Below the pieces are notes generated by a model. That model made no database searches. It was not told the origin of the DNA and saw nothing but the letters and a program-made list of their open reading frames with translations. From Entrophospora sp. SA101 (lineage: Eukaryota > Glomeromycota > Glomeromycetes > Entrophosporales > Entrophosporaceae): a stretch of DNA of 64,000 bases. Every line of letters begins with the position of its first letter. Position 1 is the first letter of the stretch. This document shows, one piece after another, positions 1 to 38,460 of this stretch. The position numbers and the translations under genes were made by a program. The DNA lies in assembly GCA_958430865.1 (NCBI GenBank), contig CAUDNR010004301.1, positions 59,368-123,367 on the forward strand, written 5' to 3'.

Positions 1-74
1 TTTTTTAAAATCCAATGTGTGGATCACATAATATTTCAAAAAATTTAACTTTTGAGTATAGATGATCCGCACTG
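1..74. mobile_element. Right end of a 600-bp TA-flanked MITE
   Basis: The inverted end at 57-74, read on the minus strand, is CAGTGCGGATCATCTATA and is followed by TA at 75-76. It mirrors the left ends at 26525 (CAGTGCAGATCATCTATA) and 30006. The full-length copy of the same element is 30006-30605. Ends beginning CAGT with a TA target suggest the Tc1/mariner-pogo superfamily; that placement is inference. Confidence 0.6.
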
Positions 75-248
75 TATGTAAAAGGACCTTTACTTCACGG
101 GAAAAATTTTAAATTTTTTCTATAACTTTATTATCTATCAAATTACAGTTTTATTTTTTTAATTACATATTTATATGGGACCCTGAAGCCTTTTAAAGAT
201 AGCCCCCAAAAATTGAGCCATATAATTCTATTTTATTTTATTTTCTAA

Positions 249-404
249 ATGCCGAAAAGAAAAATAGCCGAAATAGTAGAAAGCAGCAGCACAGAAGAAA
301 AGAAAAAAAAACAGTTCACACTCCAAAGTGGTATAAAATTTTTTACAAAACATGTGAATCTGGATGCTGCTACACAAAATTCATACCGCAAAAAAAAAAT
401 TTGA
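249..404 (+). CDS. Small Lys-rich ORF of 51 residues, uncertain
   Basis: An open frame starts with MPKRK, runs through a Ser/Glu/Lys-rich stretch, then a more ordered segment (QSGIKFFTKHVNLDAATQNS) and stops at TGA. It lies just inside the duplicated block, about 170 bp beyond the MITE end, and recurs at 30780-30935. No intron or domain is visible. It could be the first exon of an unrecognised gene, a truncated transposon ORF or a chance frame. I do not recognise it. Confidence 0.25.
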   Translation: MPKRKIAEIVESSSTEEKKKKQFTLQSGIKFFTKHVNLDAATQNSYRKKKI

Positions 405-1072
405 GCCCAAGCATTGCGGGCATTGAATTATACATTGACATTCAAAATTTGTAACGATAAAAAAACCGTAAACGATTTATGAGTACGCATTTAACCATAA
501 ATCAGTCGAAATAAAATAAAACCAGACAAGATGATAAAATTTATTTCAATAGCCCCATATAAAATTAATTTGAAAATTATTTTATTTTAATAATAGAAAA
601 AAAAATGAGAATGAGGATGTAACTATATACACAAGGAAAAAAATTGATAAATAATGAATGATGATAATTGTTTGTAATAAATAGCGATTTTTATTTTACT
701 CTGTAATAATAATAAAAGCACTTGTTTTTTAAAATCTATTTAAAATTGCCACCACCGCCACCGCCACCATTACACTCAAATTGTTTTATTCAAAGGATAC
801 AATACAATTACAATTATTAAATATAATAAATTGAGGATAATTTTTTTTTTAAAAAAATACATAAATGTAAACACCAAACCATACACACCACGCATTCTAA
901 AAATATGTACAAAAAAAAAATAATAAATAAATAAAATAATGTGTGATATGACAAATAAATTCAAAAAAAAAAATTTTTTTTTGAAAATATGAAAAGTAAA
1001 TATGAAAATAATAAAGAAAATATGAGAAAAAAAATATTAATATTAAAAATACATATCTAAAAAAAAAATCAT
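405..1072. other. AT-rich spacer
   Basis: This is the 3' flank of the Ser-rich gene. It is very AT-rich, with a short (CCACCG)-type run near 750. I see no gene; a 62-codon minus frame at 776-964 is Phe/Ile-rich and looks like chance. Confidence 0.6.
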
Positions 1073-3142
1073 TTATTTTCTTCTATTTGAAGATATTTTA
1101 GATGGCACCGTGCTACCAGGCGCAGGAAGTTTTGAATTTCTTGAAGTTGCCATTGACATTCTATTTGCTGTTGTCGGTGATTTTTTACTAGTAGATTTTG
1201 TGGGTGAAGTAGTGGTGGTGGTATTTTTACTCTTTATATTACTATTATTGCTATTATTGTTGTTATTGTTACTGTTACTATAATTATTTATTGGTGAAGG
1301 TGATGTGCCTCTACCAACAGAAGATCCGTATGATATGGAACTTGTAAAAGATCTCAAAGAATCAGTTTCTGATCCACCAAGAGGAGAATCTGGTGGACTA
1401 TAACAATAATTATCAGGTTCATCATAAATACTATCTGTTTGAAGACTAAATTTACGTGCAATTCCTTTAGCTGTTTTAGCATTTGATCCAGCAGATGACG
1501 GTGTTCTAATATTACTGTTAGGTGAAGTGATGTGACTTTTAGATGATGCTGTGTTAGTAATGGCTATTGAACTAGGTCTACCAAGCCTACTTAACGTTCT
1601 GGTGTTGTTTGATGTATTGTTGTTGCTATTGTTGTTGTTGTTGTTGTTACGAGGACTTGGAATATTTCCTGCCCTACTACTTGGTCTGGCTAGACCTGTC
1701 ATTTGTGAAGGAGGACGTTTAAGTCCAAGTCTAGAATTATTATTTGCTGTTCTAGACAGTGTAGGTGATGTTGGCCTTGATGGTGATGAAGGCTGCATGC
1801 TAGCACGAATTTTTTTTGACGATGAATCAGTTGGCGAGTTAATTGAAGTCTTTGTAGTACCAGCCCTACTTAATGGTCTAAAATTTGATGATGTTGATGA
1901 TGATTTACTCATAGATAAAGATGAAGATGGTCTTGGTAGTACTTCGTCAGCTGAACAACCTCCACTAATAGATCTTTGACGAAATTTATTATTATATATT
2001 GCTAGTCCTCCTCTCGCATTAGTAGGTGATGCAATTCTTGATGTAGTAGGTGTAGTTGATGAAACAGTGCTGTCATCAGTCATGGTACTACTATTACTAG
2101 TGGTACTAATGCCACTTAATGATCTTGGACGAGTAGAATATAACGATGGCGATGGTGATGATGATGATGATGGTGATACTGCATCTGATTTATTTGCACT
2201 CGATCCAGGCTTACCGATTCTACTCGGTGCTCTTATTCCCAAAGTATTTGATGGTTTCCTTGTTCCACTTCCAGTTATTGTGCCTCTTGAACTAGTGCTT
2301 GCTGCTGATCTAGTAGATCCATTTGACATTGTTTCAAATAATTCATCCGGATCTGCTGTCGATGAGGCTTGTGATGATGTAGGTGATAATGGAGTTAATG
2401 GAGATATGCCGAAATGACCAAAAAATGCAGATTTTGACATTCCAGCTGGGATTCCTGATTTACCACCTGTTAATGAAGCACGTGGAGTTGGTGCTGGTGA
2501 TGGTGATGGACATGGTCTCAGAATCGGTGTGATTTGTGTATCTAACAATAAATCTAATTCATCCTCCACTTCTTTTGACTCCAGCTAGAGATTATAACAT
2601 GAAAAATAAATAAACGAATAGTTTTAAAAATGCGAATATAGATATTTTAAAGCCGCTTACATCAAATATATTATCTTCGTTATTTGAAGTTTTCCAAAGG
2701 TCATCGGCTTCTTGATTATCAATTTCAAGTGGAGTATCACTTAGACTTTCTTCTTCCTCAGCTATAATACTAACAGGCCTGGCTGTATTAAAGTTCGGCG
2801 ATGGGCCACGTAAAGGTGTAGTTGATGGTGTTAGATGTCTAGCAAGCTATTAAAAAATTATTTATATTAGCATATATATTTAGAAAATAATAATGATATG
2901 TATATATATGTATTATAATAAATAAATAAATATTATACCTCGGATGGATCGATTTTCCAAAAATCTTCACTATCGTCACATAAATCGTCAACGTCATCGC
3001 CTAGATTAACACCGCCACCCGCATCTAAATCACTTGTTTGAGCAATCAATTCATCCAAATCTATCGAACAATCTGATTCAATGTCTGATATTAATCCATC
3101 TTTATATTTTCTAATTAATATGGAGGAAAAAAATTATAATTA

Positions 3143-3185
<43 letters not shown>

Positions 3186-4068
3186 AAAATCATTAATTTT
3201 TAAAAAAACTCGTACTTTTTATCATCTTTACTATTAATAGTTATTGTTGGTTGTTGTGAATCATTTTGATTCTTGGTAGGTGTTAAAATAATAATCTCAT
3301 CATCATCATTATTATTATTTTTAAGTTTTCTTTGTTTCATAAGGTTTTTTAGTTCCATTCTTTGTTTTGAACGATCAGCAGCAGCTCTTTGACGTTTTTC
3401 ATCTGGTGTTAATTCTTCATTTGGTGATGGTGATATTGACGAATTTGAAGATGAAGGAGACGGTGAAAGTGAATTTGATGAATTTGATGAATTTGAACTT
3501 GAAGGTGAAGATGGCGAATTATTTAATTGTTCATTTAAATTAATTTCATCTTTTGAATTAAGTTCACTGAATAATATAAATAAAATTTAATTATTAGTAA
3601 TTTTTTCATCATCAAAAAAACAATTAATTTGTTTATTATTACCTACCTTTCATTATTTAAATTTATTAATGATGGTTCATCTTTATTATCGTTACTATTA
3701 CTACCATTACCGTTATTGTCATTACTATTACTATCATTACTATTACTATCATCATTACCAATATTATAAGGCTGTTTTTGTAAAAAGAACTCTTTAATGC
3801 TTTCTCTTTTAGTTTGTAATTTTAATTTTCCTTCGTCCTCTTCTTCTGCATTTTCATTATCTTCTATATTATTTGTATCTTTAGATTTATTTATACTTTC
3901 TATATTACTTGTATCTTTAGATTCATTTTTGTCTTTAGACTCTATTATTTCATCTTCTTTATTATTATTATTTGAATTTTCTAAGTTATTTTCTGATGAA
4001 AGTTCATTTATTGATGATGAAGACGACGAAGATGTTATTGAAGACATTGATGACGGTGATGATGACGG

Positions 4069-4112
<44 letters not shown>

Positions 4113-4347
4113 CTAAGTTATCTATATTGTTATTATCATTATTATTATTAGTATCTGATAATTCTTTATTATTTTGAATAATTAAAGATTCTACCTCTCC
4201 ATTATCGTTACTATTATTACCATCATTATTACTATCACTATTATTATTATCACTATTATTATTATTTATTTCGCTATTACATTCATTTTCTTGATTTTTT
4301 TTCTTCTTTTCTTCTTCTAATTTACGAACTAATAATAACTCTCGCAT
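1073..4347 (-). CDS. Ser/Asn-rich disordered protein, candidate microtubule-tip binder (left copy)
   Basis: Five exons can be joined on the minus strand: 4347 to about 3647; then exons beginning with ELNSKDE, YKDGLISD and LARHLTPS; and a long last exon from LESKEVEDE to the stop at 1073. All junctions are GT-AG. The N-terminal exon is Asn-rich with a 14-Ser run. A middle basic segment (DEKRQRAAADRSKQRMELKN) looks helical. Acidic segments follow, then about 500 residues of Ser/Pro/Arg-rich disorder. The last exon repeats motifs of the type SRIGKP, SGIPAG, GNIPSPR and SKLPAPG. These resemble SxIP/SKLP motifs by which disordered proteins bind EB1-type microtubule tips. That role is inference; no folded domain is visible. 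The promoter side has a (CT)n tract near 4400. Confidence 0.75.
3147..3185. repeat. (ATTG)n microsatellite in an intron
   Basis: About ten units of a tetranucleotide lie in an intron of the Ser-rich gene. The same array recurs in the right copy near 33678-33716 with no visible length change, which is notable for a fast-mutating repeat. Confidence 0.85.
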
Positions 4348-4866
4348 ACTATTTTATTATATTATTTATACAAAATAATATAATATATCGATATATGTTT
4401 CTCTCTCTCTCTTGTACTGTCTACTGTTTGTCTGTATAAAATAATTATTTAAGTATTTCTATTTTTGTGGATTTTTTATCTTTTTTTAATTTTTACGAGT
4501 TGTAAAAGAAGACGACAAAGAAATTAGGCTCTTTAAAATTTATTTCTTGGAATTAGTAGTATTTTTTGAACATTAATTAATTGCTTTTCTTCTTTACTTT
4601 TTTTTATATTTTAATAATAAAAATTATGAAACAAACAAAATATATAATTTTTTAAAAATATAAATATTTTTTTACAATATGTAGTATTTAATATTATTAA
4701 ATTGATTGATTGGGCTCGTGTAATATAGTAAAATAAAATACTAACTATCTAATACATACAATTATACTTAATTTATCTTTATACTAACAACTATTAACAA
4801 ATAAAAAAAAAATTTTTCAATTATTATTTATATTAAATATAAAAAAAAAAATAATTTATACAAATA

Positions 4867-4899
<33 letters not shown>

Positions 4900-5981
4900 A
4901 GTAATTATACAATTTATACGTACAATTATACACACGTACTTGCACATTCTCATTCTCATCTTAACAACTCTAATTCACTAATTCTAGTCTATTTAATATT
5001 TTTTACAAAATTGGTAAATTAGTTTCTAAAAAAAAATTTTTCACACATGCACGTTTTTATTATACTAGACTAAAAGATGTTCTGAACTCTTTTTATCATA
5101 AAGAAAACTAAACCTCTTGTACATAATAAAGAAAATATTTAATATCGGAAGGGCATCATTATATCTTCCTACCATTCTGTTCCCATTATATTATTGCTAA
5201 GGTTGTAGACCCAATCCTTCGAAATGCATAAAAGTATGAATTTTTTTGGTAGTTTCCCGCCCGCCATACATTATACATACATATGTATGCATTTAAAAGT
5301 AACAAAAAACATTTGCTATCACGGATGTTTCTCTCCATCATCATGATTTATTGCAGATAAACAAAATAGAAGGTTGGTGAATGAACCGTAAAGTAATCAA
5401 TCAAATAACTAATAGTAAAATCCGATCCAAACTCAAATCCGATCCAATCCAATTCAATTTTAAGGATTGATGCAATTCTAATTTAATTTATCGGATTCAA
5501 GAAAAATATGGAAATTTTCGATCATACTAACTTAAACGACTATTGTGTGACAACATCTGTCTGACTAATTAATTAATTGGTATTTCTACATGCGCGTGTT
5601 ACCGTTTTTTGTAAATAACGTGTTTTAAATAATCATTAGACTCTATTTATCAAACCATTATTATTATTATTGATAATATTGTTGTTGTTTCTGACTTTCT
5701 TATTAAAGTTTAAGTAATAATTGATGAAAAGGAGATGAATGATCTGGTCTGTGCTTTTTTAATTTATGCAATATATGCAAAAAAAAATTAAAACAATCAA
5801 ACAATAATATTTTTATCGATTGTAAATAAGATTTATAATAAAATATTTGATTGATGAGATGTTTTACATAAGCGCGTTCCTTTTTATTTTTCATTTTGAT
5901 GAATGTTCGTTCACTCTTGAAAATAAAATTAATCATTTATCTATCGTTATTATTATTATTATTATCCGTTAATTAATTTTG
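4348..5981. promoter_or_regulatory. Divergent intergenic region between the Ser-rich and GPCR genes
   Basis: This 1.6-kb spacer separates two divergently transcribed genes. It holds a CT-rich tract (about 4397-4415), an (ATT)n array near 4868-4900, and otherwise AT-rich DNA with no convincing gene. Promoters of both genes must lie here, but I identified no specific factor site. Confidence 0.5.
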
Positions 5982-6642
5982 ATGAAAAATTTTCTCTCTT
6001 TAATTAATTTTTCCCATGATTTTTCTTCTTTTATTTCAAATGAAGATGCTTTAATTGAATATAAAAAATATTATCCAAATGTAAATCCAAATGATTACCA
6101 AGGTCATTTATTGCTTTATTTTTGTAAGTGGGTTTTTTATTTTTAAAAATTAAAAAGTTTCGATTAAAAATTAACGATTATTTATTTATTTATACTGTAT
6201 AATAATAATAGCACTAATTATGACGCAAGTAAGTTAAAATTAACCTTAAATAAACTCAATTAATTAAACTTTAAAAATTAATTAATTAATCAATCTAATT
6301 TTTCCGCTCGAAATTATTTTTTCTTCAGATAAATTTAATTTCGAGCTTTTTCGTCATTTACCAAACATTACAAAGGGTTAAACTTAATTCAAATTTATCA
6401 ATGGGGGTACGTCTACCAATGTACATAGCAATTAATAACGCATTATCCGCTGTATCGTATTCTGCTAATGCTATTGGTACGCTGGTAATTGGTATTCCTT
6501 GGGCTGGTAAGGCTTGTAAAATTTATGGGTTTTTTGACACATTCATTATTTCAATGAGGTAAGCAGTATTATTGTTATTATTTGAGTATAAATATATCAG
6601 ATATATGGTGATTAATGTTATATTATTATTATGAATATTTTA
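5982..6642 (+). pseudogene. Truncated 5' part of GPCR gene (left copy)
   Basis: The frame starts at ATG 5982 with MKNFLSLINFSHDFSS. It carries two short exons and one longer exon that encodes a hydrophobic helix (SLIMTQ/INLISSFFVIYQTL) and a second membrane segment ending FFDTFIISMR. The sequence equals the start of the intact gene at 36513. At 6642, inside the next intron, it switches to unrelated sequence, so the later membrane segments and C-terminal tail are missing. If the assembly is right, this is a dead fragment; if wrong, it is a false copy. Confidence 0.75.
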
Positions 6643-7130
6643 GGTATATATCCAGTATTTTTATGAAGTTGTTCTGATAATCCATTAATTTGTAAATCAA
6701 CTTGCAAGGTTTTAAGTACATATTCAATGATTCCACATAATTTTATATATGCAGAGTAACATAAGGGTAAATGATGCATAAAATTATATTTATAATTATG
6801 TCTAGCTTCTGATTGAATACTAGTTGTTTCAAAAGACATCAATTGAGCTTTTATGAATGATTCAAGTGCATCTTTTCCTAATGCATGTAGTTGAAGATGT
6901 CTTTCAAAAAACTGCTTAAATCCTATTTTTTCATAACAGGTTCTTAAATCATTTTTTGTAGTTTTACAATGACAATTATTTTCTTGAAAAAATGTCATTA
7001 AATCATGTATGGTATCAAGAACTAATTCATTTTCTTCATAATCTTCTAAGCCTAATTCTATGAAATTATATACTGGTCTTAAATTTGAGTTCAAAGATAA
7101 ATTTTCCATATTAATTTTAAAATTTAACAA
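6643..7130 (-). pseudogene. TE-associated ORF fragment truncated at the block breakpoint
   Basis: A minus-strand frame starts at 7130 (an internal MENLSLN is an alternative start). It has a CxC(x8)C cluster (NCHCKTTKNDLRTCYEKIGF), a helix ending in a QL motif (FIKAQLMSFE), a PLCYSAYIKLCGI segment and then NGLSEQLHKNTGYIP. This order, Cys cluster, F..R, QL..F, then NGL..(R)H.NTG, resembles N-terminal regions of dispersed transposon-like proteins that are abundant in Glomeromycotina; this is from memory of the pattern, not a search. The recognisable protein stops exactly at 6643, so the downstream domain is lost. It lies tail-first against the truncated GPCR. Confidence 0.5.
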
Positions 7131-7323
7131 AAGTAAAATTTTATTTAAAAAAATATTAATATTAATATATATAACGGAATTTTTTTAATAATATTAATGT
7201 TTAAATTTTTTATTTACAATTCTTTGTTGTACAGAAAACGTGCCCATGTAGATCATATTAATATAGTAAAAAATCTGTGAATTCTTGTCTCGTCCGACTG
7301 ATGTATATATATATTTTTGAAGG

Positions 7324-11430: not shown

Positions 11431-12767
11431 TATATTAATTCATTTTTCAGAAATCACTTGCCTGTAAAAATTCCTCGTAATGCACATTATTATTCATTGT
11501 GGTGTCCATTAACTTTATAAATGTTAACTAAAAAAATTACAAAATAATGAAAATTAATTATATCCCCAAAATAATTGTCTTACAATGTAACCAGCTAAAA
11601 TAATTTCATACATAGCCCGAGTAGTGATAATACCAAGGCCATGCGGAAATGAAATTTAAGAAAACAAGTCTAATCCTTGCCTTGTCATTCAAATGGTAGT
11701 ATACAATAGCAATGGTTAATTAAGGGTAGAGTGTAGTCATGTGATTTTATATAATGATCGGCAAGGATAAATAATTCCTGAACCTCTTTTAAATCACTCG
11801 CTTCATACACAGCTACACCAAAAAACTAGTTTTCGTGAGACGAAAATTAACACAAAATTTATTGTTAGATGGTTATTTCAAAAAAAAAATTTTAAGTGAA
11901 TAATAACCATATTATTAAATACCAAAAGAAAATTGCCTGTTTTTAATCAAGGTACGTGTAAGTGATATTAGTTTTACTCATGTAATTTGGATCATTAAAA
12001 ACATTTAAAATAGAATTTTTTGAAAACAACTATATAGATGAGTTGAGGGATGGTAATAGAAGTCAATAACAAGATAGCAATATATCTCCGCCTATTCTAC
12101 ATATACTATTTGTTCTATATATATACTATTCTTCGGGGAAGTTATATCAAATTTTCTTTTACTTTAAACAAAACGTGGGAGCTTCCTGTAATTTTACTTG
12201 GTATTTTGTGAAATAATTAATATAATTAATATAATTAACTAACATCATAATTTATTTATAAATAAGGAACATGGGAAATATTTTAATGAACCTTCCATCC
12301 ATATATGTGCCTTTTTTCATTATAAATACTAAGATGTTCATTATAGAGAGAAATTAATTAAAAGGGAGGTTCATTATAGAGATTTTACTTAGTGTTTGTT
12401 ATAGAGAGAGTGAACTGTAGCTTGTTTATTTTATTTTTTTGTTTGCTAAAGGATGTCATAGAAGAAAAGAACAATGTTATATTAAATATTTAATATAAAT
12501 GAAATAAAAATAATTTTTTTTATATTACTGTTATGTATATATAATAATAATAGTAATAGTAATAGTGTTATCATGACTACACTAATATTTTTGATCGGCA
12601 GTCAAAAAATTATCTACTACTACTGTATCATAGTAAAATTCGTGTTTCCTACACTCTACTCTTAAAGATCGCAGTTTATCTACTTTCCCTATTTAATGTT
12701 TTTTTAAAAATTAGTAATTTTTTTTTAAAAAAACCGTAATTATTAGTTTAAAGTTTGTTGAAAAGAA
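11431..12767. other. Intergenic spacer
   Basis: This 1.3-kb stretch is AT-rich with no recognised gene. It includes a putative transposon end at 12342-12421, listed separately, and the upstream region of NMT1. Confidence 0.5.
12342..12421. mobile_element. Possible pogo-like MITE end
   Basis: Repeated units of the form 'ttcattatagaga' and 'tgttatagagag' end in 'gagtgaactgtag'. Read on the minus strand this begins CTACAGTTCACTCTCTCTAT, which looks like a pogo/Tigger-type terminal repeat. No matching left end was found, so it may be a solo or decayed copy. Confidence 0.3.
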
Positions 12768-14559
12768 ATGAGTGGTGAAGAGATTGATAAGAATGGTAAT
12801 AAAGAAAGTGAGGATGTTGATAATGTAACTGTTGATGATACAACCAAGACTGTTGTTAGTACCAATGCTACTGAAGAGACAGCAGCAGCAGCAGCATTGC
12901 AAGAAAAAGTTAGACTATTAGTTAATCAATTGGCACTTTGGGATGCAATCAATCCACAGCCTACCACTTCGGCTAGTGCCAAAGATCATAAATTTTGGAA
13001 TACTCAACCTGTGCCAAAACTTGGTAATATTGATTATCATGATGATGATTGGTGACTTATTGTTATTAATTATTAATACTGTAATATCAAAATATCATTT
13101 CTACATTTAATAGATGAAGTAATTGAGAAGAATGAAGCAATAGAAAAAAATACCCCCCATGATGAAATTCGTAAAGAACCTTATAATCTACCAAAGGAAT
13201 TTGAATGGACTTCATTAGAATTAAACAATGAAGATGAAGTAACTTGCAATTAATTTAAAAATTATTAATTCATAATTAATAATTAATGAAAAATTTGTTT
13301 TATTAGTTGAAAGAACTTTATAATCTTTTAACAAATAATTATGTGGAGGATGATGATGCAATGTTTAGGTTTGATTATTCACCTGAATTTTTGAAATGGT
13401 AAAATATTATTTTTTTTTTTTTTTTGATGGAGGATTGTTATTTATGAGTGTAATTTAATTTAATTTTCATTTTTGGGGGGGGATAAAGGGCACTTATGCC
13501 ACCAGGTTATTTAAAGGTTTGGCATGCTGGAGTTCGTGTTACTGCATCAAAAAAACTTGTTGCATTTGTGAGCGGGATTCCTGGAAATATTAGAATATAT
13601 AATTCGTAAGTTTAAATAATAATCAATTAATTATTATAATAAATAATTTTTGAATTAATTTCCTTTCCTCTTGTTTTTCTACTTTTACTTTTTTTAATTT
13701 TATAGTAGACAAAATCTTGTTGAAATTAATTTCTTGTGTGTTCACAAGAAACTTAGAAGTAAAAGATTAGCACCTGTGTTAATTAAAGAAATTACACGTA
13801 GATCTCACCTACAAGGAATATTTCAGGCTGTTTACACTGCTGGAGTTGTATTACCAAAACCTATTTCCAAGGCAAGGTATAATAAATGATACCTTGGTTA
13901 TTAAATAATTGATTTACAATTATCATCTAATGAGCCATTAATTGATAGTTTCTTTGTTATTTTAGATATTTTCATAGATCTCTTAATCCAAAGAAATTGG
14001 TTGAAACAAATTTTTCACGCTTACCACAAAATGTGCCATTATCACGATATGTTAAAAAATATAAAGTGTCAACTAAAACTGTAACACCTGGAATTAGAGA
14101 AATGTTAGAAAAAGATGCTTCAGCAGTTAGAAATTTATTAAATTCATACATGGAAAAATTTGATTTTGTGCCTGAATTTAAAAATGATGATGAAATCAAA
14201 CATTGGATTTTACCTAGAGAAAATGTTGTCTGGTCATATGTTGTTGAGGTTATTATTGTTATTAATAATGATGATGATAATATTAATAAGATTATTGCAA
14301 TATATTTAATTGAACATTTCTAATTTTAAAATATTATCATTTAGGATACAGAAACTAAAGAAATCACAGACTTTTTTTCATTTTATTATTTACCTTCATC
14401 AGTTATTGGTAATCCAACACATAAAACTATAAATGCAGTTTATCTTTTTTATTATGCAATTAAAGAAACTGATGAAGAAGGAATTAAAGGAAAATTGCAG
14501 TCATTAATGAAAGATGCTTTGATTTTGGCTAAATTAGTTTAGTATATTTAATATATATA

Positions 14560-14600
<41 letters not shown>

Positions 14601-14786
14601 TTAATTTTTTCCCACATTTTATAACAGAAAAATGTTGATGTTTTTAATTGCCTTGATATTATGGATAATAAAGTATTTATTAGTGATCTTAAATTTGGTG
14701 CAGGTGATGGATATTTAAATTATTATATGTATAATTGGAGATGTAAAGATACAACAAGTGAAAAAGTTGGAATTGTAATGTTATAA
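12768..14786 (+). CDS. NMT1: Glycylpeptide N-tetradecanoyltransferase (N-myristoyltransferase)
   Basis: The enzyme transfers myristate from myristoyl-CoA to N-terminal glycine of proteins such as Arf GTPases. Exon 1 (12768-13023) gives an acidic, low-complexity N-terminus and then the conserved [10 protein letters not shown]. Later exons give [28 protein letters not shown], the core [20 protein letters not shown] with the acyl-CoA-binding region, and [20 protein letters not shown]. The end [16 protein letters not shown]...GIVML is typical; in this family the C-terminal carboxylate takes part in catalysis. Two GNAT-like halves are complete and no break is visible. A long (AT)n tract (about 14560-14596) sits in the last intron. 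Total length is near the family norm. Confidence 0.95.
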
Positions 14787-14946
14787 TTATATATATATGT
14801 ATATAATTATTATTATGTATAAATTATTATTATTTAAATTATTAATTTTGTTTTTGTTATTAAATGAAAAATAATTCTTTTGCTTTTTTAAATTCATTCC
14901 CCCTACCTACCTACCTATGTATTTAAATCTTTAATCTTTCTTTAAA

Positions 14947-17676: not shown

Positions 17677-17785
17677 TAAATATTAATTTTTTTTTTGTTT
17701 AAATAAATAAATGTTAACATATTATATAAGTCATAAATTATTGTCATTACTATATGATTTTTATTATTTTTTTTTTTTTATTAAA

Positions 17786-25262: not shown

Positions 25263-25818
25263 AAATTATAAAGGACTAATGATAATTATTATTATCACCC
25301 AGTCACATATTGTGTAATGAAGTAGATCATTAAGTTATCATTCAGGTTTATTCATCACCTATCAGGATTTAATAGTTATCATCCCTGAGATGAATAAGAC
25401 CAGAATGATAACTATCAAAATCTACAATCATACATTATTGTGATAACTCTCTTATTATTATCCCTCACTTCATGGGGGATAACTATTATTTATTACTGTT
25501 ACATTATTACCTTTATTGGCAGCTTCCCCATGCAATTTCAAATAAATAAGACTATTAATATCTCATTGAGTCATGTTTTTAACTTTAATTTGTTATAAAA
25601 ATTCAAGGAAAAAAATAAAATTTTTTTTTTGAAATTTAACAAGGCACTGCAAGCAAGTTTTAGGGGTTAACATTCTAGTTAACCAAGACATCAGAAAAGG
25701 CATGGACAATTAGTATCCTTCAAAAATTGGTAATATGTAAAGTTAAGACTAATAACTAATAATAACTTTAATCTAGATACCAATATCCAAAAGATTGCAA
25801 TACCTGTGATTAGGACTA

Positions 25819-26070
25819 AGGTTTTTGGTCAAAACTGCTTCTATTAGTAGCCGAAATTGCCCAAATACTTTGGGCAAAATTATTTTTTTATAAGCCCAAA
25901 CTACTTTTTGTTATTAGCCAAAATTGGGCGAAATTATTTTAAAGTTGTTTAAGTTAAAACAAGTTGATTCATATAGTTTTTTAATGTTCATGCTTATAAA
26001 AAATGTTGAGAAGCCCAAATTGCCCCAACTAGTTTGGGCTTTGGGAAAACAGTTTGGACTAGAAATCTTA
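25819..26070. mobile_element. 252-bp MITE with 10-bp direct repeats
   Basis: The direct repeat ATTAGGACTA flanks the element (25809-25818 and 26071-26080). Imperfect inverted ends read AGGTTTTTGGTCAAAACTG on the left and TAAGATTTCTAGTCCAAACT on the right complement. The interior is full of GCCCAAA/TTTGGGC inverted motifs. A 10-bp target duplication would fit a Mutator-like origin. No coding capacity. Confidence 0.55.
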
Positions 26071-26082
26071 ATTAGGACTAGA

Positions 26083-26149
26083 GATGTGGCATGCGCATGA
26101 AAAAAAATGCAATGTGCATGATTTTTTTTTTCAAATCATGCAATGTCAC
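26083..26149. repeat. Imperfect hairpin
   Basis: Copies of ATGCAATGTGCATGA/CATGCAATGTCACAT-type sequence face each other around an A/T tract, giving an imperfect foldback of about 65 bp. It may be part of another small element. Confidence 0.3.
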
Positions 26150-26524
26150 ATAGACAATTCTATCCAATTAAAATTTTTCAAAAAAAAATAATATAAATTA
26201 ATTTTATTCATTGAAATGTCAAAAATGTCAAAATCAAAAATTTGGCTTCATTTTGTCAAATTGGGTAGAACTGATGGTTTTAAACAAAATAGGACTGATA
26301 CAAATATTGTGACTATGAATTAAATCATGCAGTTGGAAGGTGTGAACTGCATTTAAAAAAATGTATCTCTGTACCAGTTTCTGTTCTACAATCATTATTC
26401 AGTCCAAACTTTCTCAAGATACAAATTTGTTAGCATCATCATCATCATCATCAATTAGTACAATTTCAACTAATTTGCACAGTAGATGACATAGATTTAA
26501 TCACATGGTGTTTTTCTTCAACTA

Positions 26525-26860
26525 CAGTGCAGATCATCTATAATCATTAATTGCTTATACACAGTGAGTCTCGGTATAGCGGATGTCTAATAAAACTCTC
26601 AGTTTAATGGATCAAAGCTCAGAACTGTCTATAAGTAAATTCTCTTGGTTTAATGGATTTACTAATTAAATCTTGAATTAATCTCGGTATAACAGATTTT
26701 TGAAATTTTGTTCTAATTGCCCAAATTATCCGCTATACTGAGACTCACTGTGTATATAGTAACAATTGGTCAACTCCAAAATGCTAAAACAAAAAAAAAT
26801 TATATCATTTTAAAAAATTTAACCGATAAGTTTTATTGTTCATGACTCAAGCTTCAAAAC
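26525..26860. mobile_element. 600-bp family MITE, left half, interrupted and gapped
   Basis: It starts CAGTGCAGATCATCTATAATC after TA and aligns with 30006 onward at a few percent divergence. It is interrupted by a 193-bp nested MITE (26560-26752). It then breaks at 26860 into ten Ns, after 'gcttcaaaac', where the full copy continues 'ttatcgtctgg'. The break is in an internal hairpin (GATAAGTTTT...AAAACTTATC), a likely cause of assembly failure. Confidence 0.7.
26560..26752. mobile_element. 193-bp pogo-like MITE nested in another MITE
   Basis: Terminal inverted repeats of 25 bp match at all but one position (left CACAGTGAGTCTCGGTATAG, right complement CACAGTGAGTCTCAGTATAG). Both sides carry TATA, consistent with TA-targeted insertion. 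The related copy at 30006 has no insertion here and so acts as an empty site. The ends resemble Tigger/pogo elements, so it is probably a non-autonomous derivative. Confidence 0.8.
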
Positions 26861-26870
26861 NNNNNNNNNN
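26861..26870. other. Assembly gap (10 N)
   Basis: Ten N bases join two contigs. The gap lies in the middle of a MITE and immediately before a perfect 202-bp terminal inverted repeat, so order and distance across it are uncertain. Confidence 0.99.
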
Positions 26871-28430
26871 TCTGATTGGCTAATTTGAATTTCACGCGCG
26901 TGAATTTCGACGCGGATTCCAAAATTAAATTCATTAATTCAAAATTCGTAAAAAAATATGGATAAAATAATTATTGAATGTTCTTCAAAAAAAGAATTCA
27001 ACCAACTTGGAATATATATATCTTGATGAAGTTGACATCAACAAGGTAATAACATAAACACACATAAACATTGTTAAAAACTTTCCAAGAAAGAAGTGAA
27101 TCAATATCACCTATTGACCTTTCTTGATAATAAAAGCAATTGAGAAATTAATGATGAAAGCTCATTGATTTCTGTTGAATCAAATTGTCTAAAAAATTAA
27201 AACAAATAAAATATTATCAAAAAATATAAATAATTAATTAATATAGAAAAAAATCCCGCCTCAGAATTTTGTTAATCACCAATTCCAACTTTGTATATTT
27301 ATTTAGGTATATAAAAAAAAGATATAAATAAAATTATTCATAATTGTTATTATAATTATTACAATTAATTGATTAATATATTAATGTTTACCCCATCATC
27401 TAACATTTGAATATCTTTTAATTCACCAGTTAAGCTTAAAATGTTTTTTGGGTTCCATATAGAGCAACATATTTTATTTATTAGATAATATTTATAATTC
27501 TGAATTGTCATTGATTCACCAGATGGAAGAACCAAAATTTTCAGTCCAAAACTCTAAAATATACATCAAATTTGGCAAAAATACAAATAATTTTTTGGAT
27601 AATGGTCTACAACTTCCTATAGCTTGAATTATGCAATTGATGCATTCTACAAGCATTTGTACTGTGATCAGAAAATCGAGCGAACTAAGTAATATCTTTT
27701 TTAGTAAGATTAATTAATTAATTAATAGAGGAAACACAAAATATAAAATAAAAAATAAATAGTAAATTTATTAATTCTAAACCTCTTTAATGTACATTGA
27801 CATCAAGTCATTTAATGTACTTTCTAACAATGGAGAATTTTCATCATCTTTCCTGACAACCTATAAATTTGTTTAATATTAGAAAATTTCAATGATTTTT
27901 ATTTATTGTTCAATGAATTAATTATACCATTTAATAATTTCTTTGATAATTATAACATGTCTTTTATTTCTCAATTCTCGTAATTCATAGTTTTCTAAAT
28001 AACCATCAATAACTGACGCTTTGTAATTAAATTTTAATCAAAACATCATAGGATTGGATGAATTTCTAATTAGCAAAAAAAAATTTTGACAATAGATACA
28101 TTTAAAAATAGCAGCAACATACATATTCATCGCTTTTACAAAAAATTATTTGTCATTTAGCAGAGTGTTTACTAAGTTCAATATCTATAAATTTATGAAC
28201 CCGGTCATTGGAAAGAAATATTAAATATAATGTTTATGTGTGTTTATGTTATTACCTTGTTGATGTCAACTTCATCAAGATATATATATTCCAAGTTGGT
28301 TGAATTCTTTTTTTGAAGAACATTCAATAATTATTTTATCCATATTTTTTTACGAATTTTGAATTAATGAATTTAATTTTGGAATCCGCGTCGAAATTCA
28401 CGCGCGTGAAATTCAAATTAGCCAATCAGA
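26871..28430. mobile_element. 1.56-kb element with perfect 202-bp terminal inverted repeats
   Basis: Left repeat 26871-27072 and right repeat 28229-28430 appear perfectly complementary over 202 bp by line-by-line reading. Each outer end reads TCTGATTGGCTAATTTGAAT and contains the palindrome TTCACGCGCGTGAA and a CCAAT box. Long inverted repeats and a small size fit a non-autonomous Mutator-like element, but no transposase is visible. The target duplication cannot be tested on the left because of the adjacent gap. The interior carries decayed minus-strand exons, listed separately. Identical arms suggest recent insertion, gene conversion, or a foldback assembly error at the contig end. Confidence 0.75.
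27111..28225 (-). pseudogene. Decayed multi-exon gene inside the TIR element
   Basis: In minus-strand order the readable segments are: FLSNDRVHKFIDIELSKHSA, a stop, then QIIFCKSDEYVC; YKASVIDGYLENYELRELRN with KRHVIIIKEIIKWYN; VVRKDDENSPLLESTLNDLM; FGLKILVLPSGESMTIQNYK with CSIWNPKNILSLTGELKDIQ; and a last segment QFDSTEINELSSLISQLLLL that stops near 27111. Intron-like AT-rich gaps separate them, and in-frame stops occur in the first part. I do not recognise the family. Position between the inverted repeats suggests a captured host gene fragment, as in Pack-MULEs, or a dead transposon gene. Confidence 0.4.
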
Positions 28431-29297: not shown

Positions 29298-30005
29298 AAT
29301 TGCAAATTCACATAGATTTCATTTTCACGCACAACATTACTAAAAGTTTTTTTTAATATAGAAAAAAAGTTGTTTAGTTAAAAAGTGATTTTTTACTATT
29401 TTTATTACAAAATACAAAATAAATTAGGCGTGCCTCAATAATTGTAAAACAATACAATAAATTCATTCATCTTAAAATTAAATGCTAGAAATCACATTAA
29501 TAGAAATTTTTTCAATTGTTATTATAGTCAATGTAAATATTTTGATTGATCCTTATGACAGTTGGTGGTTATATCAAACAAAAATAGCCATTATAGTTAA
29601 TATATAATAAGTTTCTGACCAAAGTTAATTATGAATGAATCTATAAATTATTTGGAAGAGACACAATCACGTTAAATTGATAATGCAATTCTGCAATTGT
29701 GGCATTTAAAAATGTGTCATGTTCACTTCGTCTGGTTTTGTTGCCCGTTTAGTATGTAAAGTGCTTAATGCCGAGGAAATATGGAAATTCTTGATTCATT
29801 TTATAAATTTGATTAAGTGATATCAATTCTATTTCAAGAAATATTCCATTGGAATTTTTAAGTTGTAGAAGGTGTTATTGTTGTAATAAAAGAGAATCGG
29901 AAAAGATGGATGACTATATATAAGAAATAAAGCAGAGCTACGAGGTTGCTTGATGAAGTGGGCCAGACGTGTCGATCGCGTGGAATCTGTTTTATTATTA
30001 CGGTA

Positions 30006-30605
30006 CAGATCATCTATAATCATTAATTGCTTATGGTAACAATTGGTCAACTTCAAAATACTAAAACAAAAAAAAATTATATCGTTTTAAAAAATTTAAC
30101 CGATAAGTTTTATTGTTCATGACTCAAGCTTCAAAACTTATCGTCTGGTTTTTTTTAAAACTGAAAATTGGTGAGCCTTAGCATTTTGAAAATTCCGAAT
30201 TTGTTATATACTTAAGAAATTGAGACCAAGTAAATTTCGTGTAACAACTTTTTTTTTTCATAAAATATTTTCTACAAGATACATTTGATTTATTTTTTAT
30301 TAATAAATAAATAAAAGTTCTTTACAACAAAAAAGTTTAACGAAAATATTACATTAAAAGAAAATCATTACCAAATTTGGTCGAGATTCAAAATATTGTA
30401 ACACGAAAATTATTGTTGCACTTATGAGCATAACTTTCAAATTTAAAAAATCAATGAAAAAGAAAATTTGAGACAAATTTTTTTTTAGATTAATAGACTC
30501 TCTTTTTAAAGCTGAATTGAATGGTGGTGGGTTTTTTAAAATCCAATGTGTGGATCACATAATATTTCAAAAAATTTAACTTTTGAGTATAGATGATCCG
30601 CACTG
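30006..30605. mobile_element. 600-bp TA-flanked MITE, full copy
   Basis: The left end CAGATCATCTATAATC follows TA (30004-30005). The right end is the complement of CAGTGCGGATCATCTATA and is followed by TA (30606-30607). The left end lacks a few bases relative to the copy at 26525. There is an internal hairpin GATAAGTTTT...AAAACTTATC near 30100-30145. No coding capacity. Its right end lies inside the duplicated block. Confidence 0.65.
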
Positions 30606-30779
30606 TATGTAAAAGGACCTTTACTTCACGGGAAAAATTTTAAATTTTTTCTATAACTTTATTATCTATCAAATTACAGTTTTATTTTTTTAATTACATA
30701 TTTATATGGGACCCTGAAGCCTTTTAAAGATAGCCCCCAAAAATTGAGCCATATAATTCTATTTTATTTTATTTTCTAA

Positions 30780-30935
30780 ATGCCGAAAAGAAAAATAGCC
30801 GAAATAGTAGAAAGCAGCAGCACAGAAGAAAAGAAAAAAAAACAGTTCACACTCCAAAGTGGTATAAAATTTTTTACAAAACATGTGAATCTGGATGCTG
30901 CTACACAAAATTCATACCGCAAAAAAAAAATTTGA
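30780..30935 (+). CDS. Small Lys-rich ORF of 51 residues (right copy)
   Basis: Identical to the frame at 249-404: start MPKRK, Lys-rich middle, stop TGA. It lies about 175 bp beyond the MITE end. No family is recognised and it may be non-genic. Confidence 0.25.
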   Translation: MPKRKIAEIVESSSTEEKKKKQFTLQSGIKFFTKHVNLDAATQNSYRKKKI

Positions 30936-31603
30936 GCCCAAGCATTGCGGGCATTGAATTATACATTGACATTCAAAATTTGTAACGATAAAAAAACCGT
31001 AAACGATTTATGAGTACGCATTTAACCATAAATCAGTCGAAATAAAATAAAACCAGACAAGATGATAAAATTTATTTCAATAGCCCCATATAAAATTAAT
31101 TTGAAAATTATTTTATTTTAATAATAGAAAAAAAAATGAGAATGAGGATGTAACTATATACACAAGGAAAAAAATTGATAAATAATGAATGATGATAATT
31201 GTTTGTAATAAATAGCGATTTTTATTTTACTCTGTAATAATAATAAAAGCACTTGTTTTTTAAAATCTATTTAAAATTGCCACCACCGCCACCGCCACCA
31301 TTACACTCAAATTGTTTTATTCAAAGGATACAATACAATTACAATTATTAAATATAATAAATTGAGGATAATTTTTTTTTTAAAAAAATACATAAATGTA
31401 AACACCAAACCATACACACCACGCATTCTAAAAATATGTACAAAAAAAAAATAATAAATAAATAAAATAATGTGTGATATGACAAATAAATTCAAAAAAA
31501 AAAATTTTTTTTTGAAAATATGAAAAGTAAATATGAAAATAATAAAGAAAATATGAGAAAAAAAATATTAATATTAAAAATACATATCTAAAAAAAAAAT
31601 CAT

Positions 31604-33673
31604 TTATTTTCTTCTATTTGAAGATATTTTAGATGGCACCGTGCTACCAGGCGCAGGAAGTTTTGAATTTCTTGAAGTTGCCATTGACATTCTATTTGCT
31701 GTTGTCGGTGATTTTTTACTAGTAGATTTTGTGGGTGAAGTAGTGGTGGTGGTATTTTTACTCTTTATATTACTATTATTGCTATTATTGTTGTTATTGT
31801 TACTGTTACTATAATTATTTATTGGTGAAGGTGATGTGCCTCTACCAACAGAAGATCCGTATGATATGGAACTTGTAAAAGATCTCAAAGAATCAGTTTC
31901 TGATCCACCAAGAGGAGAATCTGGTGGACTATAACAATAATTATCAGGTTCATCATAAATACTATCTGTTTGAAGACTAAATTTACGTGCAATTCCTTTA
32001 GCTGTTTTAGCATTTGATCCAGCAGATGACGGTGTTCTAATATTACTGTTAGGTGAAGTGATGTGACTTTTAGATGATGCTGTGTTAGTAATGGCTATTG
32101 AACTAGGTCTACCAAGCCTACTTAACGTTCTGGTGTTGTTTGATGTATTGTTGTTGCTATTGTTGTTGTTGTTGTTGTTACGAGGACTTGGAATATTTCC
32201 TGCCCTACTACTTGGTCTGGCTAGACCTGTCATTTGTGAAGGAGGACGTTTAAGTCCAAGTCTAGAATTATTATTTGCTGTTCTAGACAGTGTAGGTGAT
32301 GTTGGCCTTGATGGTGATGAAGGCTGCATGCTAGCACGAATTTTTTTTGACGATGAATCAGTTGGCGAGTTAATTGAAGTCTTTGTAGTACCAGCCCTAC
32401 TTAATGGTCTAAAATTTGATGATGTTGATGATGATTTACTCATAGATAAAGATGAAGATGGTCTTGGTAGTACTTCGTCAGCTGAACAACCTCCACTAAT
32501 AGATCTTTGACGAAATTTATTATTATATATTGCTAGTCCTCCTCTCGCATTAGTAGGTGATGCAATTCTTGATGTAGTAGGTGTAGTTGATGAAACAGTG
32601 CTGTCATCAGTCATGGTACTACTATTACTAGTGGTACTAATGCCACTTAATGATCTTGGACGAGTAGAATATAACGATGGCGATGGTGATGATGATGATG
32701 ATGGTGATACTGCATCTGATTTATTTGCACTCGATCCAGGCTTACCGATTCTACTCGGTGCTCTTATTCCCAAAGTATTTGATGGTTTCCTTGTTCCACT
32801 TCCAGTTATTGTGCCTCTTGAACTAGTGCTTGCTGCTGATCTAGTAGATCCATTTGACATTGTTTCAAATAATTCATCCGGATCTGCTGTCGATGAGGCT
32901 TGTGATGATGTAGGTGATAATGGAGTTAATGGAGATATGCCGAAATGACCAAAAAATGCAGATTTTGACATTCCAGCTGGGATTCCTGATTTACCACCTG
33001 TTAATGAAGCACGTGGAGTTGGTGCTGGTGATGGTGATGGACATGGTCTCAGAATCGGTGTGATTTGTGTATCTAACAATAAATCTAATTCATCCTCCAC
33101 TTCTTTTGACTCCAGCTAGAGATTATAACATGAAAAATAAATAAACGAATAGTTTTAAAAATGCGAATATAGATATTTTAAAGCCGCTTACATCAAATAT
33201 ATTATCTTCGTTATTTGAAGTTTTCCAAAGGTCATCGGCTTCTTGATTATCAATTTCAAGTGGAGTATCACTTAGACTTTCTTCTTCCTCAGCTATAATA
33301 CTAACAGGCCTGGCTGTATTAAAGTTCGGCGATGGGCCACGTAAAGGTGTAGTTGATGGTGTTAGATGTCTAGCAAGCTATTAAAAAATTATTTATATTA
33401 GCATATATATTTAGAAAATAATAATGATATGTATATATATGTATTATAATAAATAAATAAATATTATACCTCGGATGGATCGATTTTCCAAAAATCTTCA
33501 CTATCGTCACATAAATCGTCAACGTCATCGCCTAGATTAACACCGCCACCCGCATCTAAATCACTTGTTTGAGCAATCAATTCATCCAAATCTATCGAAC
33601 AATCTGATTCAATGTCTGATATTAATCCATCTTTATATTTTCTAATTAATATGGAGGAAAAAAATTATAATTA

Positions 33674-33716
<43 letters not shown>

Positions 33717-34599
33717 AAAATCATTAATTTTTAAAAAAACTCGTACTTTTTATCATCTTTACTATTAATAGTTATTGTTGGTTGTTGTGAATCATTTTGA
33801 TTCTTGGTAGGTGTTAAAATAATAATCTCATCATCATCATTATTATTATTTTTAAGTTTTCTTTGTTTCATAAGGTTTTTTAGTTCCATTCTTTGTTTTG
33901 AACGATCAGCAGCAGCTCTTTGACGTTTTTCATCTGGTGTTAATTCTTCATTTGGTGATGGTGATATTGACGAATTTGAAGATGAAGGAGACGGTGAAAG
34001 TGAATTTGATGAATTTGATGAATTTGAACTTGAAGGTGAAGATGGCGAATTATTTAATTGTTCATTTAAATTAATTTCATCTTTTGAATTAAGTTCACTG
34101 AATAATATAAATAAAATTTAATTATTAGTAATTTTTTCATCATCAAAAAAACAATTAATTTGTTTATTATTACCTACCTTTCATTATTTAAATTTATTAA
34201 TGATGGTTCATCTTTATTATCGTTACTATTACTACCATTACCGTTATTGTCATTACTATTACTATCATTACTATTACTATCATCATTACCAATATTATAA
34301 GGCTGTTTTTGTAAAAAGAACTCTTTAATGCTTTCTCTTTTAGTTTGTAATTTTAATTTTCCTTCGTCCTCTTCTTCTGCATTTTCATTATCTTCTATAT
34401 TATTTGTATCTTTAGATTTATTTATACTTTCTATATTACTTGTATCTTTAGATTCATTTTTGTCTTTAGACTCTATTATTTCATCTTCTTTATTATTATT
34501 ATTTGAATTTTCTAAGTTATTTTCTGATGAAAGTTCATTTATTGATGATGAAGACGACGAAGATGTTATTGAAGACATTGATGACGGTGATGATGACGG

Positions 34600-34643
<44 letters not shown>

Positions 34644-34878
34644 CTAAGTTATCTATATTGTTATTATCATTATTATTATTAGTATCTGATAATTCTTTAT
34701 TATTTTGAATAATTAAAGATTCTACCTCTCCATTATCGTTACTATTATTACCATCATTATTACTATCACTATTATTATTATCACTATTATTATTATTTAT
34801 TTCGCTATTACATTCATTTTCTTGATTTTTTTTCTTCTTTTCTTCTTCTAATTTACGAACTAATAATAACTCTCGCAT
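31604..34878 (-). CDS. Ser/Asn-rich disordered protein (right copy)
   Basis: This five-exon gene encodes the same protein as the left copy at 1073-4347. The order is an Asn-rich N-terminus with a poly-Ser run, a basic helical segment, acidic stretches ending in FWKIDPSE and LWKTSNNE, and a Ser/Pro/Arg-rich C-terminus with SGIPAG and SKLPAPG motifs. The two acidic segments with a conserved Trp (SEDFWKID, ADDLWKTS) look like short linear interaction motifs. If the left copy is an assembly artefact, this is the only gene. Function is unknown; binding to EB-type microtubule-tip proteins is a motif-based guess. Confidence 0.78.
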
Positions 34879-35397
34879 ACTATTTTATTATATTATTTAT
34901 ACAAAATAATATAATATATCGATATATGTTTCTCTCTCTCTCTTGTACTGTCTACTGTTTGTCTGTATAAAATAATTATTTAAGTATTTCTATTTTTGTG
35001 GATTTTTTATCTTTTTTTAATTTTTACGAGTTGTAAAAGAAGACGACAAAGAAATTAGGCTCTTTAAAATTTATTTCTTGGAATTAGTAGTATTTTTTGA
35101 ACATTAATTAATTGCTTTTCTTCTTTACTTTTTTTTATATTTTAATAATAAAAATTATGAAACAAACAAAATATATAATTTTTTAAAAATATAAATATTT
35201 TTTTACAATATGTAGTATTTAATATTATTAAATTGATTGATTGGGCTCGTGTAATATAGTAAAATAAAATACTAACTATCTAATACATACAATTATACTT
35301 AATTTATCTTTATACTAACAACTATTAACAAATAAAAAAAAAATTTTTCAATTATTATTTATATTAAATATAAAAAAAAAAATAATTTATACAAATA

Positions 35398-35430
<33 letters not shown>

Positions 35431-36512
35431 AGTAATTATACAATTTATACGTACAATTATACACACGTACTTGCACATTCTCATTCTCATCTTAACAACT
35501 CTAATTCACTAATTCTAGTCTATTTAATATTTTTTACAAAATTGGTAAATTAGTTTCTAAAAAAAAATTTTTCACACATGCACGTTTTTATTATACTAGA
35601 CTAAAAGATGTTCTGAACTCTTTTTATCATAAAGAAAACTAAACCTCTTGTACATAATAAAGAAAATATTTAATATCGGAAGGGCATCATTATATCTTCC
35701 TACCATTCTGTTCCCATTATATTATTGCTAAGGTTGTAGACCCAATCCTTCGAAATGCATAAAAGTATGAATTTTTTTGGTAGTTTCCCGCCCGCCATAC
35801 ATTATACATACATATGTATGCATTTAAAAGTAACAAAAAACATTTGCTATCACGGATGTTTCTCTCCATCATCATGATTTATTGCAGATAAACAAAATAG
35901 AAGGTTGGTGAATGAACCGTAAAGTAATCAATCAAATAACTAATAGTAAAATCCGATCCAAACTCAAATCCGATCCAATCCAATTCAATTTTAAGGATTG
36001 ATGCAATTCTAATTTAATTTATCGGATTCAAGAAAAATATGGAAATTTTCGATCATACTAACTTAAACGACTATTGTGTGACAACATCTGTCTGACTAAT
36101 TAATTAATTGGTATTTCTACATGCGCGTGTTACCGTTTTTTGTAAATAACGTGTTTTAAATAATCATTAGACTCTATTTATCAAACCATTATTATTATTA
36201 TTGATAATATTGTTGTTGTTTCTGACTTTCTTATTAAAGTTTAAGTAATAATTGATGAAAAGGAGATGAATGATCTGGTCTGTGCTTTTTTAATTTATGC
36301 AATATATGCAAAAAAAAATTAAAACAATCAAACAATAATATTTTTATCGATTGTAAATAAGATTTATAATAAAATATTTGATTGATGAGATGTTTTACAT
36401 AAGCGCGTTCCTTTTTATTTTTCATTTTGATGAATGTTCGTTCACTCTTGAAAATAAAATTAATCATTTATCTATCGTTATTATTATTATTATTATCCGT
36501 TAATTAATTTTG
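34879..36512. promoter_or_regulatory. Divergent intergenic region (right copy)
   Basis: Same content as 4348-5981: a CT-rich tract near 34930, an (ATT)n array near 35400 and no convincing gene. It separates the divergent Ser-rich and GPCR genes. Confidence 0.5.
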
Positions 36513-38460
36513 ATGAAAAATTTTCTCTCTTTAATTAATTTTTCCCATGATTTTTCTTCTTTTATTTCAAATGAAGATGCTTTAATTGAATATAAAAAAT
36601 ATTATCCAAATGTAAATCCAAATGATTACCAAGGTCATTTATTGCTTTATTTTTGTAAGTGGGTTTTTTATTTTTAAAAATTAAAAAGTTTCGATTAAAA
36701 ATTAACGATTATTTATTTATTTATACTGTATAATAATAATAGCACTAATTATGACGCAAGTAAGTTAAAATTAACCTTAAATAAACTCAATTAATTAAAC
36801 TTTAAAAATTAATTAATTAATCAATCTAATTTTTCCGCTCGAAATTATTTTTTCTTCAGATAAATTTAATTTCGAGCTTTTTCGTCATTTACCAAACATT
36901 ACAAAGGGTTAAACTTAATTCAAATTTATCAATGGGGGTACGTCTACCAATGTACATAGCAATTAATAACGCATTATCCGCTGTATCGTATTCTGCTAAT
37001 GCTATTGGTACGCTGGTAATTGGTATTCCTTGGGCTGGTAAGGCTTGTAAAATTTATGGGTTTTTTGACACATTCATTATTTCAATGAGGTAAGCAGTAT
37101 TATTGTTATTATTTGAGTATAAATATATCAGATATATGGTGATTAATGTTATATTATTATTATGAATATTTTATTAGTGTTACTTTGATTGCTGTGGTTG
37201 CTGTAAAAACATATTTAAAGGTGATAAGGAGCCTTTATTTAGACACTGGTAGATACGATTACAAGTAAAAGAATTTACAATTTATATTATTAATTTTTTT
37301 TTTATCTAAAACAAACAAGCAATTTTAATTTTATTATTCTATTTATTTTATTTGTAGAATATATTTAATAACAATAATTACTGCATTGATAATTTCTTGT
37401 ATTGGTTTACCCTCTTATGGACCATCAAAATATTGGTAATTATTGATATGTATGTATGTGCCCATCACACACGTTCTCATTTTCACATATTTTATTTTAA
37501 CTAAGGTGTCGGACTTCGCCTGGTGAATGGTCACTAGCAATATTACTATCATTGCTAATCTCATTTACAGCAATACTATGCCTATTTTGTTATTCAAGAA
37601 TAATTTACATGATATTCACAATCAAGCGACCAGATAGTAGTGTCAATGGAGGAAGAAGGGGAATCAACAACGAGCAACAAAAGACAGCAACATGTAAAAT
37701 CCTAATTTACACTTTCAATTATTTGATCCAATGGACGCCAACTTTACCATTTATACTTGGGGTTGCAAATAGCGATGATCCGATTTGGGTTTATTATTTA
37801 TATGTCTTGTCAACTAATATTGGCAGTGTATCAAATGCTATTCAATATATTTTTAATGAGAAATATTATATTATAGCTGATGGTGATAGTAGTAATAGAG
37901 GATGTGATATAGCCGATGTAGGTGGTGATGATGATATGAATAGTGCTAATAGCGGAAATAATGTTAATAGTGGCAATAATAATATTGAAAATGGCAAAAG
38001 TGTAGTAGATGAAAGTGTAGGTGGTAGGGAAGGTGGAAGTAATAATGACAATCAACAAATAAATGATCAACAACAACCAAAGAATAAAAAGAATAAAAAG
38101 AAATGGAATAAACCATTTATCATAAGAAAACTAATTTCAATATTTACAAAGGATCCAATTAAAAAAATTAAGAGCAATAATAATATTAATACTAATAACA
38201 CTAATCATAGCAATAATAATCTGCACAATAATGATTGTGATGATATTATTGAATTGAGATCCATGTGTACCATCACTACCACCACTAATAATAACAATTC
38301 TTCTTCATCAGTTAAAAGATCTATTTCTAATTCATCATCAATTCAAATTGAAATTTTAGAATTGGAAAAGGCCGTTGTTGATGATGGTGGTGGTGAATGC
38401 TCTTCTAGTATTATGAATAATAATTGTTGTTGTTGCTATAATGACAATAACAAATTATAA
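36513..38460 (+). CDS. Seven-transmembrane G-protein-coupled receptor
   Basis: About six exons with GT-AG introns start MKNFLSLINFSHDFSS. Membrane segments include INLISSFFVIYQTL, SAVSYSANAIGTLVIGIPWA, SVTLIAVVAVKTYLKVI, IYLITIITALIISCIGLPSY, WSLAILLSLLISFTAILCLF, ILIYTFNYLIQWTPTLPFIL and VYYLYVLSTNIGSVSNAIQY. An extracellular Cys follows the fourth helix region (WCRTSPGEW). The intracellular loop after helix 5 is basic (IKRPDSSVNGGRRG). The 180-residue tail is Asn/Ser-rich with basic patches (KNKKNKKKWNKPF) and ends with four adjacent Cys (NNNCCCCYNDNNKL), a possible palmitoylation site. Overall it resembles fungal cAMP-receptor-like GPCRs; ligand and G protein are unknown. A truncated copy lies at 5982-6642. 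Confidence 0.8.

Follow-up and report, generated by a model that had tools for sequence, protein, structure and literature searches.

A 6.6-kb block present twice without mismatch in a scaffold of Entrophospora sp. SA101 is very probably a single locus that was assembled repeatedly

The 64,000-nucleotide stretch of Entrophospora sp. SA101 DNA analysed here (the window) contains two copies of a 6.6-kb block, which carries a gene of its own (the block gene) and the beginning of a gene for a protein resembling G-protein-coupled receptors (GPCR). The window corresponds to C1795:59368-123367, and the scaffold C1795, which is 155,937 bases long and belongs to an assembly (G000) of 101,348,593 bases in 2123 contigs, was compared in full against itself; positions given below without a contig name are those of the window. 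The data showed that the left copy (copy A, 1-6642, plus strand) and the right copy (copy B, 30532-37173, plus strand) are equal at 6642 of 6642 bases, 30,531 bp apart, which confirms a preliminary description of the block as present twice without mismatch. Full pairwise comparison gave a single ungapped run with no divergence, ending at the point given in that description, and no further exact runs of at least 30 bases were found at the offset of 30,531. The block includes introns, microsatellites and homopolymers, with identical arrays listed for both copies, and because the identity spans all of these, chance is excluded as its cause. A third, partial and inverted copy (copy C, C1795:28857-32798, minus strand), detected in the self-comparison of the scaffold, corresponds to positions 30345-34286. 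Copies B and C differ in 9 columns, all in the outer 80 bases, and their match extends 187 bases to the left of the block start. Copy C is joined across 8 bp to a copy of C1795:37991-44949.

The exons of the GPCR-like gene were placed with tblastn, using the Gigaspora margarita protein P0017 and the Entrophospora proteins P0014 and P0015. In copy B, protein matches located exons at ~36519-36650, ~36857-37090, ~37173-37436 and ~37507-38376 (plus strand), while in copy A the first two matched exons were found (~5988-6119 and ~6326-6559, plus strand) and the later ones were absent. The earlier claim that only the right copy continues into a complete GPCR gene was therefore right in substance, with the refinement that the initial exons are present in both copies and the later ones in copy B only. 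The SA101 model P0015 matched the 7tm_1 domain with 29.6 bits, slightly less than the cut-off (30.5); the first 52 residues of this model all agreed with the scaffold, as did an unbroken run of 176 residues. The E. candida model P0014 agreed at 284 of 290 residues over its main part and at 50 of the first 52. The best match of the block gene was the Entrophospora sp. SA101 model P0001, whose first 233 residues were equal to the scaffold at 232; the other differences reported for this match are 89 gap columns, caused by additional codons in the scaffold. Two SA101 models from other contigs, P0001 and P0020, fuse residues of the block gene with the GPCR loop, although the two are encoded on opposite strands in copy B, which points to a further, possibly chimeric, arrangement of these pieces in the annotated SA101 assembly.

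At its right end, copy A passes through 6 bp of microhomology (6637-6642, plus strand), where the block meets an inverted fragment of another locus (E). Copy A equals copy B through C1795:66009 and equals the reverse complement of E from C1795:66004 on, with an overlap of 6 bp. The E fragment is 555 bp long (6637-7191, plus strand) and identical to the reverse complement of C1795:48059-48613. It belongs to a multicopy family and has an open reading frame at 6621-7184 on the minus strand, for which no Pfam match was found. Relatives of this family on C1061 (96%) and C1613 (83%) are uninterrupted across the point where the fragment in copy A starts. Hence, the join in copy A breaks two genes, while the arrangements in copy B and at E are each backed by relatives. 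A simple insertion at position 6637 was considered and rejected, because no B-like sequence resumes behind it in the self-comparisons and because the E fragment is itself cut, judging by its relatives. The joins on C1795 showed microhomologies of 6, 8 and 3 bp. Beyond the 6-bp and 8-bp joins, the sequence has the opposite orientation to its second copy on the scaffold, while the 3-bp join keeps the direct orientation.

The left end of copy A lies at the edge of a 10,174-base run of N (C1795:49194-59367), which adjoins position 1 without a spacer. Since position 1 is the first base after this run, the block begins on the left where sequence becomes available, not at a mapped breakpoint. Copy B is adjoined and entered by a dispersed repeat of ~610 bp (29985-30608, plus strand), of which 30532-30608 is the tail; among the matches listed, relatives of the repeat are 85-93% identical, and most have an end at 30607-30609. 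The last 77 bp of the repeat form positions 1-77 (plus strand), and the same exact 77-mer stands at the very end of contigs C1180 (13,523 bp) and C123 (40,214 bp), where it leads into different unique sequence. Over the 1577 bp seen, these two contigs are 99.9% alike; they are therefore not independent and were counted as one observation. Contig C1498 runs through the 77-mer and contains both the dispersed repeat and the other unique sequence, and C1265 and C292 start with the 77 bp at 99% identity. A fixed-length word common to contig ends at a branch point would be the pattern of de Bruijn assembler ends with k = 77, a value used by SPAdes. The 77-mer thus supports the view that the run of N to the left of the window marks a contig end. 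A mobile element was considered as the origin of the left boundary of the block and rejected, because in copies B and C the repeat extends further to the left, whereas in copy A it is just cut.

Second copies are found in much of the scaffold. With a threshold of at least 98% identity over at least 500 bp, applied against C1795 and C1586:1-17000, 45,743 of the 64,000 window bases had a second copy. The runs of N in C1795 (1-4913, 19406-21920, 32955-32964, 49194-59367, 86228-86237 and 137268-138781) leave six gap-free pieces, whose second-copy coverage was 0, 98.6, 46.3, 82.5, 46.2 and 97.7%, respectively; the piece of copy A (1-26860) is the one that is 82.5% redundant. Copied segments start exactly at the edges of N runs in three places (copy A, C1795:21921 and C1795:138782), one copied segment terminates at a 10-N gap, and the other copy ends looked at are microhomology joins.

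Part of the piece that begins with copy A is repeated on another contig, where C1586:699-15658 corresponds to 11880-26860 (plus strand) with 99.1% identity overall. The 143 differing columns of this pair all lie within C1795:71247-74499 (11880-15132), partly in a dispersed repeat, and the remaining 11.7 kb up to the gap has zero differences. Where C1795 has a 10-N gap (26861-26870, no strand), the left flank continues in C1586 as ordinary bases. On C1795 itself, segment F1 (39636-48624, plus strand) recurs at C1795:138782-147770, where 1 of 8989 positions differs, and segment F1b (49788-57540, plus strand) is repeated at C1795:147768-155547, where the differing columns of F1b/F2b are in the last 100 bases only, besides two A-run indels. 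As a whole, C1795:138782-155547 repeats C1795:99003-116907 minus 1163 bp (48625-49787, no strand), which include an exon for PMSR (methionine sulfoxide reductase) and are missing from the second copy, with 3 bp of microhomology. Beyond the outermost 100 bases, the differences in the F1/F2, F1b/F2b, D and B/C pairs amount to the two A-run indels, and a further comparison gave agreement at 7658 of 7658 bases.

Redundancy in the assembly at large was judged from searches for the proteasome family, RPB1, PEPCK and L15e, together with sampled pairs. Proteasome exons (PF00227) gave 78 matches in 36 loci, and 25 of these loci, in ten groups, share their full score set with another locus. DNA samples were compared for six multi-copy sets, chosen for equal or nearly equal scores: C1256 (four copies), C2 (three, one inverted), C714 (two), C1683 (two, inverted), C974/C1725/C1833 and C289/C1172/C1264, with scores of C289 slightly unlike the rest of its set. 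Fifteen of the 17 pairs were 100% identical, and the other two had a single mismatch in 851 bp. The seventh group, C1586/C1795, falls inside the stretch without differences, and three of the ten score-identical groups (C607/C1046, C1571/C1729 and C1396/C1462/C1746) were left out of the DNA comparison. Inverted identical pairs of 893, 1244 and 1326 bp were sampled on C1613, C1990 and C783, respectively, which were picked because paired matches had already been seen there. Hence, redundancy is common in this assembly but not total.

The history of the strain bears on these data. In a 2020 study of the mycorrhizal fungus SA101 (Claroideoglomus claroideum), whose single-nucleus Illumina reads and Nanopore reads belong to BioProject PRJNA528883, single nuclei were sorted and amplified by multiple displacement amplification (MDA), assembly workflows were compared, and SA101 was assembled from many nuclei (PMC6987183). 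Its authors state that workflow 2 creates duplications, observed that duplicated genes rise as more nuclei are combined, and advise against consensus assemblies from such contigs (PMC6987183). Workflows 2 and 3 of the same study relied on SPAdes (PMC6987183). The strain analysed here matches, by its gene models, while the passages of that study used here report gene counts and not this locus. The long contigs of G000 (C1351, at least 296 kb; C2, 250 kb; C1683, 259 kb; C1573, 262 kb) exceed the largest of 1n and 3n, and among the rows of Table 1 they fit 2n only (PMC6987183). Later assemblies by the group (PMC10512289) are not needed here. In work on MDA chimeras, 406 of 475 were inverted, and 2-21 complementary nucleotides were present at more than 70% of junctions (PMC1855051). 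The joins described above, with 6, 8 and 3 bp, are similar in their short complementarity and in the frequency of inversion, although most inverted joins in that work span less than 10 kb (337 of 406), a span that is not comparable here as the scaffold order is unreliable.

Another known type of artefact is also relevant to the scaffold. Uncollapsed duplicate contigs (haplotigs) occur in eukaryote assemblies and typically differ by heterozygosity. They are contained in or overlap other contigs, as is the case here, but most of the stretches compared here do not show the differences that heterozygosity would leave. The features expected of redundant contigs were observed as near-zero divergence that includes introns and microsatellites, with the C1586 pair as an exception, as copy boundaries at contig ends or gaps, and as a wide distribution of copies that includes core genes, RPB1 and L15e excepted.

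These data suggest, with a probability of about 0.94, that the 6.6-kb pair is a single locus of the genome that entered the assembly more than once, and thus an artefact and not a biological duplication. DNA of separate nuclei would have been amplified by MDA, with strands joined at short complementary stretches, and short-read contigs from the MDA products would have been left uncollapsed and then placed side by side in one scaffold. Copy A could be the start of one such contig (1-26860), beginning where the assembly graph exits the dispersed repeat, and this contig would consist of 6642 bases of the true locus followed by a chimeric join into the inverted fragment of another locus. Copy B, with its unbroken gene context and the GPCR exons in order, would be the native arrangement. 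The MDA origin of the joins and the choice of assembly workflow are what we infer. Short-microhomology joins, often inverted, are as expected of MDA chimeras, but joins made by natural microhomology repair would be indistinguishable from them. The case for an artefact rests on evidence other than the joins, namely the edges of N runs, the 77-mer at contig ends, the broken genes, the near-zero divergence and the redundancy on other scaffolds. Of the two readings offered in the preliminary description, one locus assembled twice is the one supported, by the redundancy, the start at a contig end, the microhomology join and the use of amplified single nuclei to sequence the matching strain, while nothing was found that favours a very recent duplication.

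Several observations weigh against assembly redundancy as the explanation. The comparisons were made on assembled sequence, and some of the N runs of C1795 may be other than assembly gaps. The piece C1795:4914-19405 is without a second copy in the sequence compared, and the first 3.3 kb of the C1586 copy contain 143 differing columns. In the assembly at large, 11 of the 36 proteasome loci lack a score-identical twin, RPB1 is present once, and a PEPCK gene on C434 has no identical twin and is 83.5% identical to the identical pair on C1586 and C1795. Two ribosomal L15e loci were found, also without an identical twin, and their longest aligned piece is ~86% identical. In addition, the total size and contig number of G000 equal no row of Table 1 in the SA101 study, so that the workflow is a guess from the contigs longer than 220 kb. 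The two L15e loci (C1573:162794-163792 and C1448:12643-13568) have flanks that can be aligned, and they perhaps reflect an old duplication or diverged nuclear types.

A true and very recent segmental duplication, accompanied by an inverted partial third copy and too young to have diverged, would have left copy A with a truncated GPCR gene. Zero differences over 6642 bp are the expectation for a brand-new duplication, microhomology joins also arise in natural rearrangement, and the lack of identical duplicates of RPB1 and L15e means that redundancy is not universal. Such an origin is nevertheless very unlikely, because several duplications on C1795, and in addition those on other scaffolds, would each need to be new, three of them would have to begin exactly at the edges of N runs, and the start of copy A is a 77-mer common to the ends of other contigs. 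The older relatives that were compared are at 83.5% (PEPCK), ~86% (L15e) and 96% or 83% (E family). A second alternative, in which the assembler would have kept apart alleles or haplotypes from different nuclei, is just as improbable, even though many nuclei went into the assembly of the matching strain, the absence of the 1163 bp from the second copy of F1 resembles a structural allele, and the C1586 copy has its 143 differing columns. Alleles should differ, yet two comparisons gave no mismatch (6642 of 6642 and 7658 of 7658 bases), in other pairs the differences are confined to segment ends or A-runs, and those of the C1586 pair lie partly in a dispersed repeat and stop abruptly. Alleles would also leave unexplained the four copies on C1256 and a copy that ends inside a fragment of another locus.

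The window also contains proteasome-family exons (16577-17494), which are identical on C1586, exons of a class II tRNA synthetase and an ATP-type PEPCK (18410-22604, minus strand), with an identical twin of the PEPCK on C1586, and an exon with a protein kinase domain match (60944-61951, minus strand). An element with perfect 202-bp terminal inverted repeats (26871-28430) begins directly after the 10-N gap and has relatives of ~82% identity on C2026. A short element at 26561-26752, with inverted ends (CACAGTGAGTCTCG...), was spotted by eye, and an end similar to its own lies directly before the gap at C1795:32955. The first 4,913 positions of C1795 are N, which is unusual in a deposited scaffold. 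Scans of the window with Rfam and with ARAGORN (bacterial code) gave no matches.

Were the duplications real, it would become possible to test for structural differences among the nuclei of a single spore, but the evidence points elsewhere. The corresponding proposal, that SA101 nuclei carry many fresh, identical and partly inverted duplications, so that the nuclei of one spore differ in structure and not in sequence, appears more improbable still than either of the alternatives above. If the block is instead one locus assembled more than once, the duplicated copy would be an artefact to be filtered out, and this assembly would give inflated or scrambled gene counts, family expansions, copy numbers and synteny, also for core genes such as the proteasome subunits.

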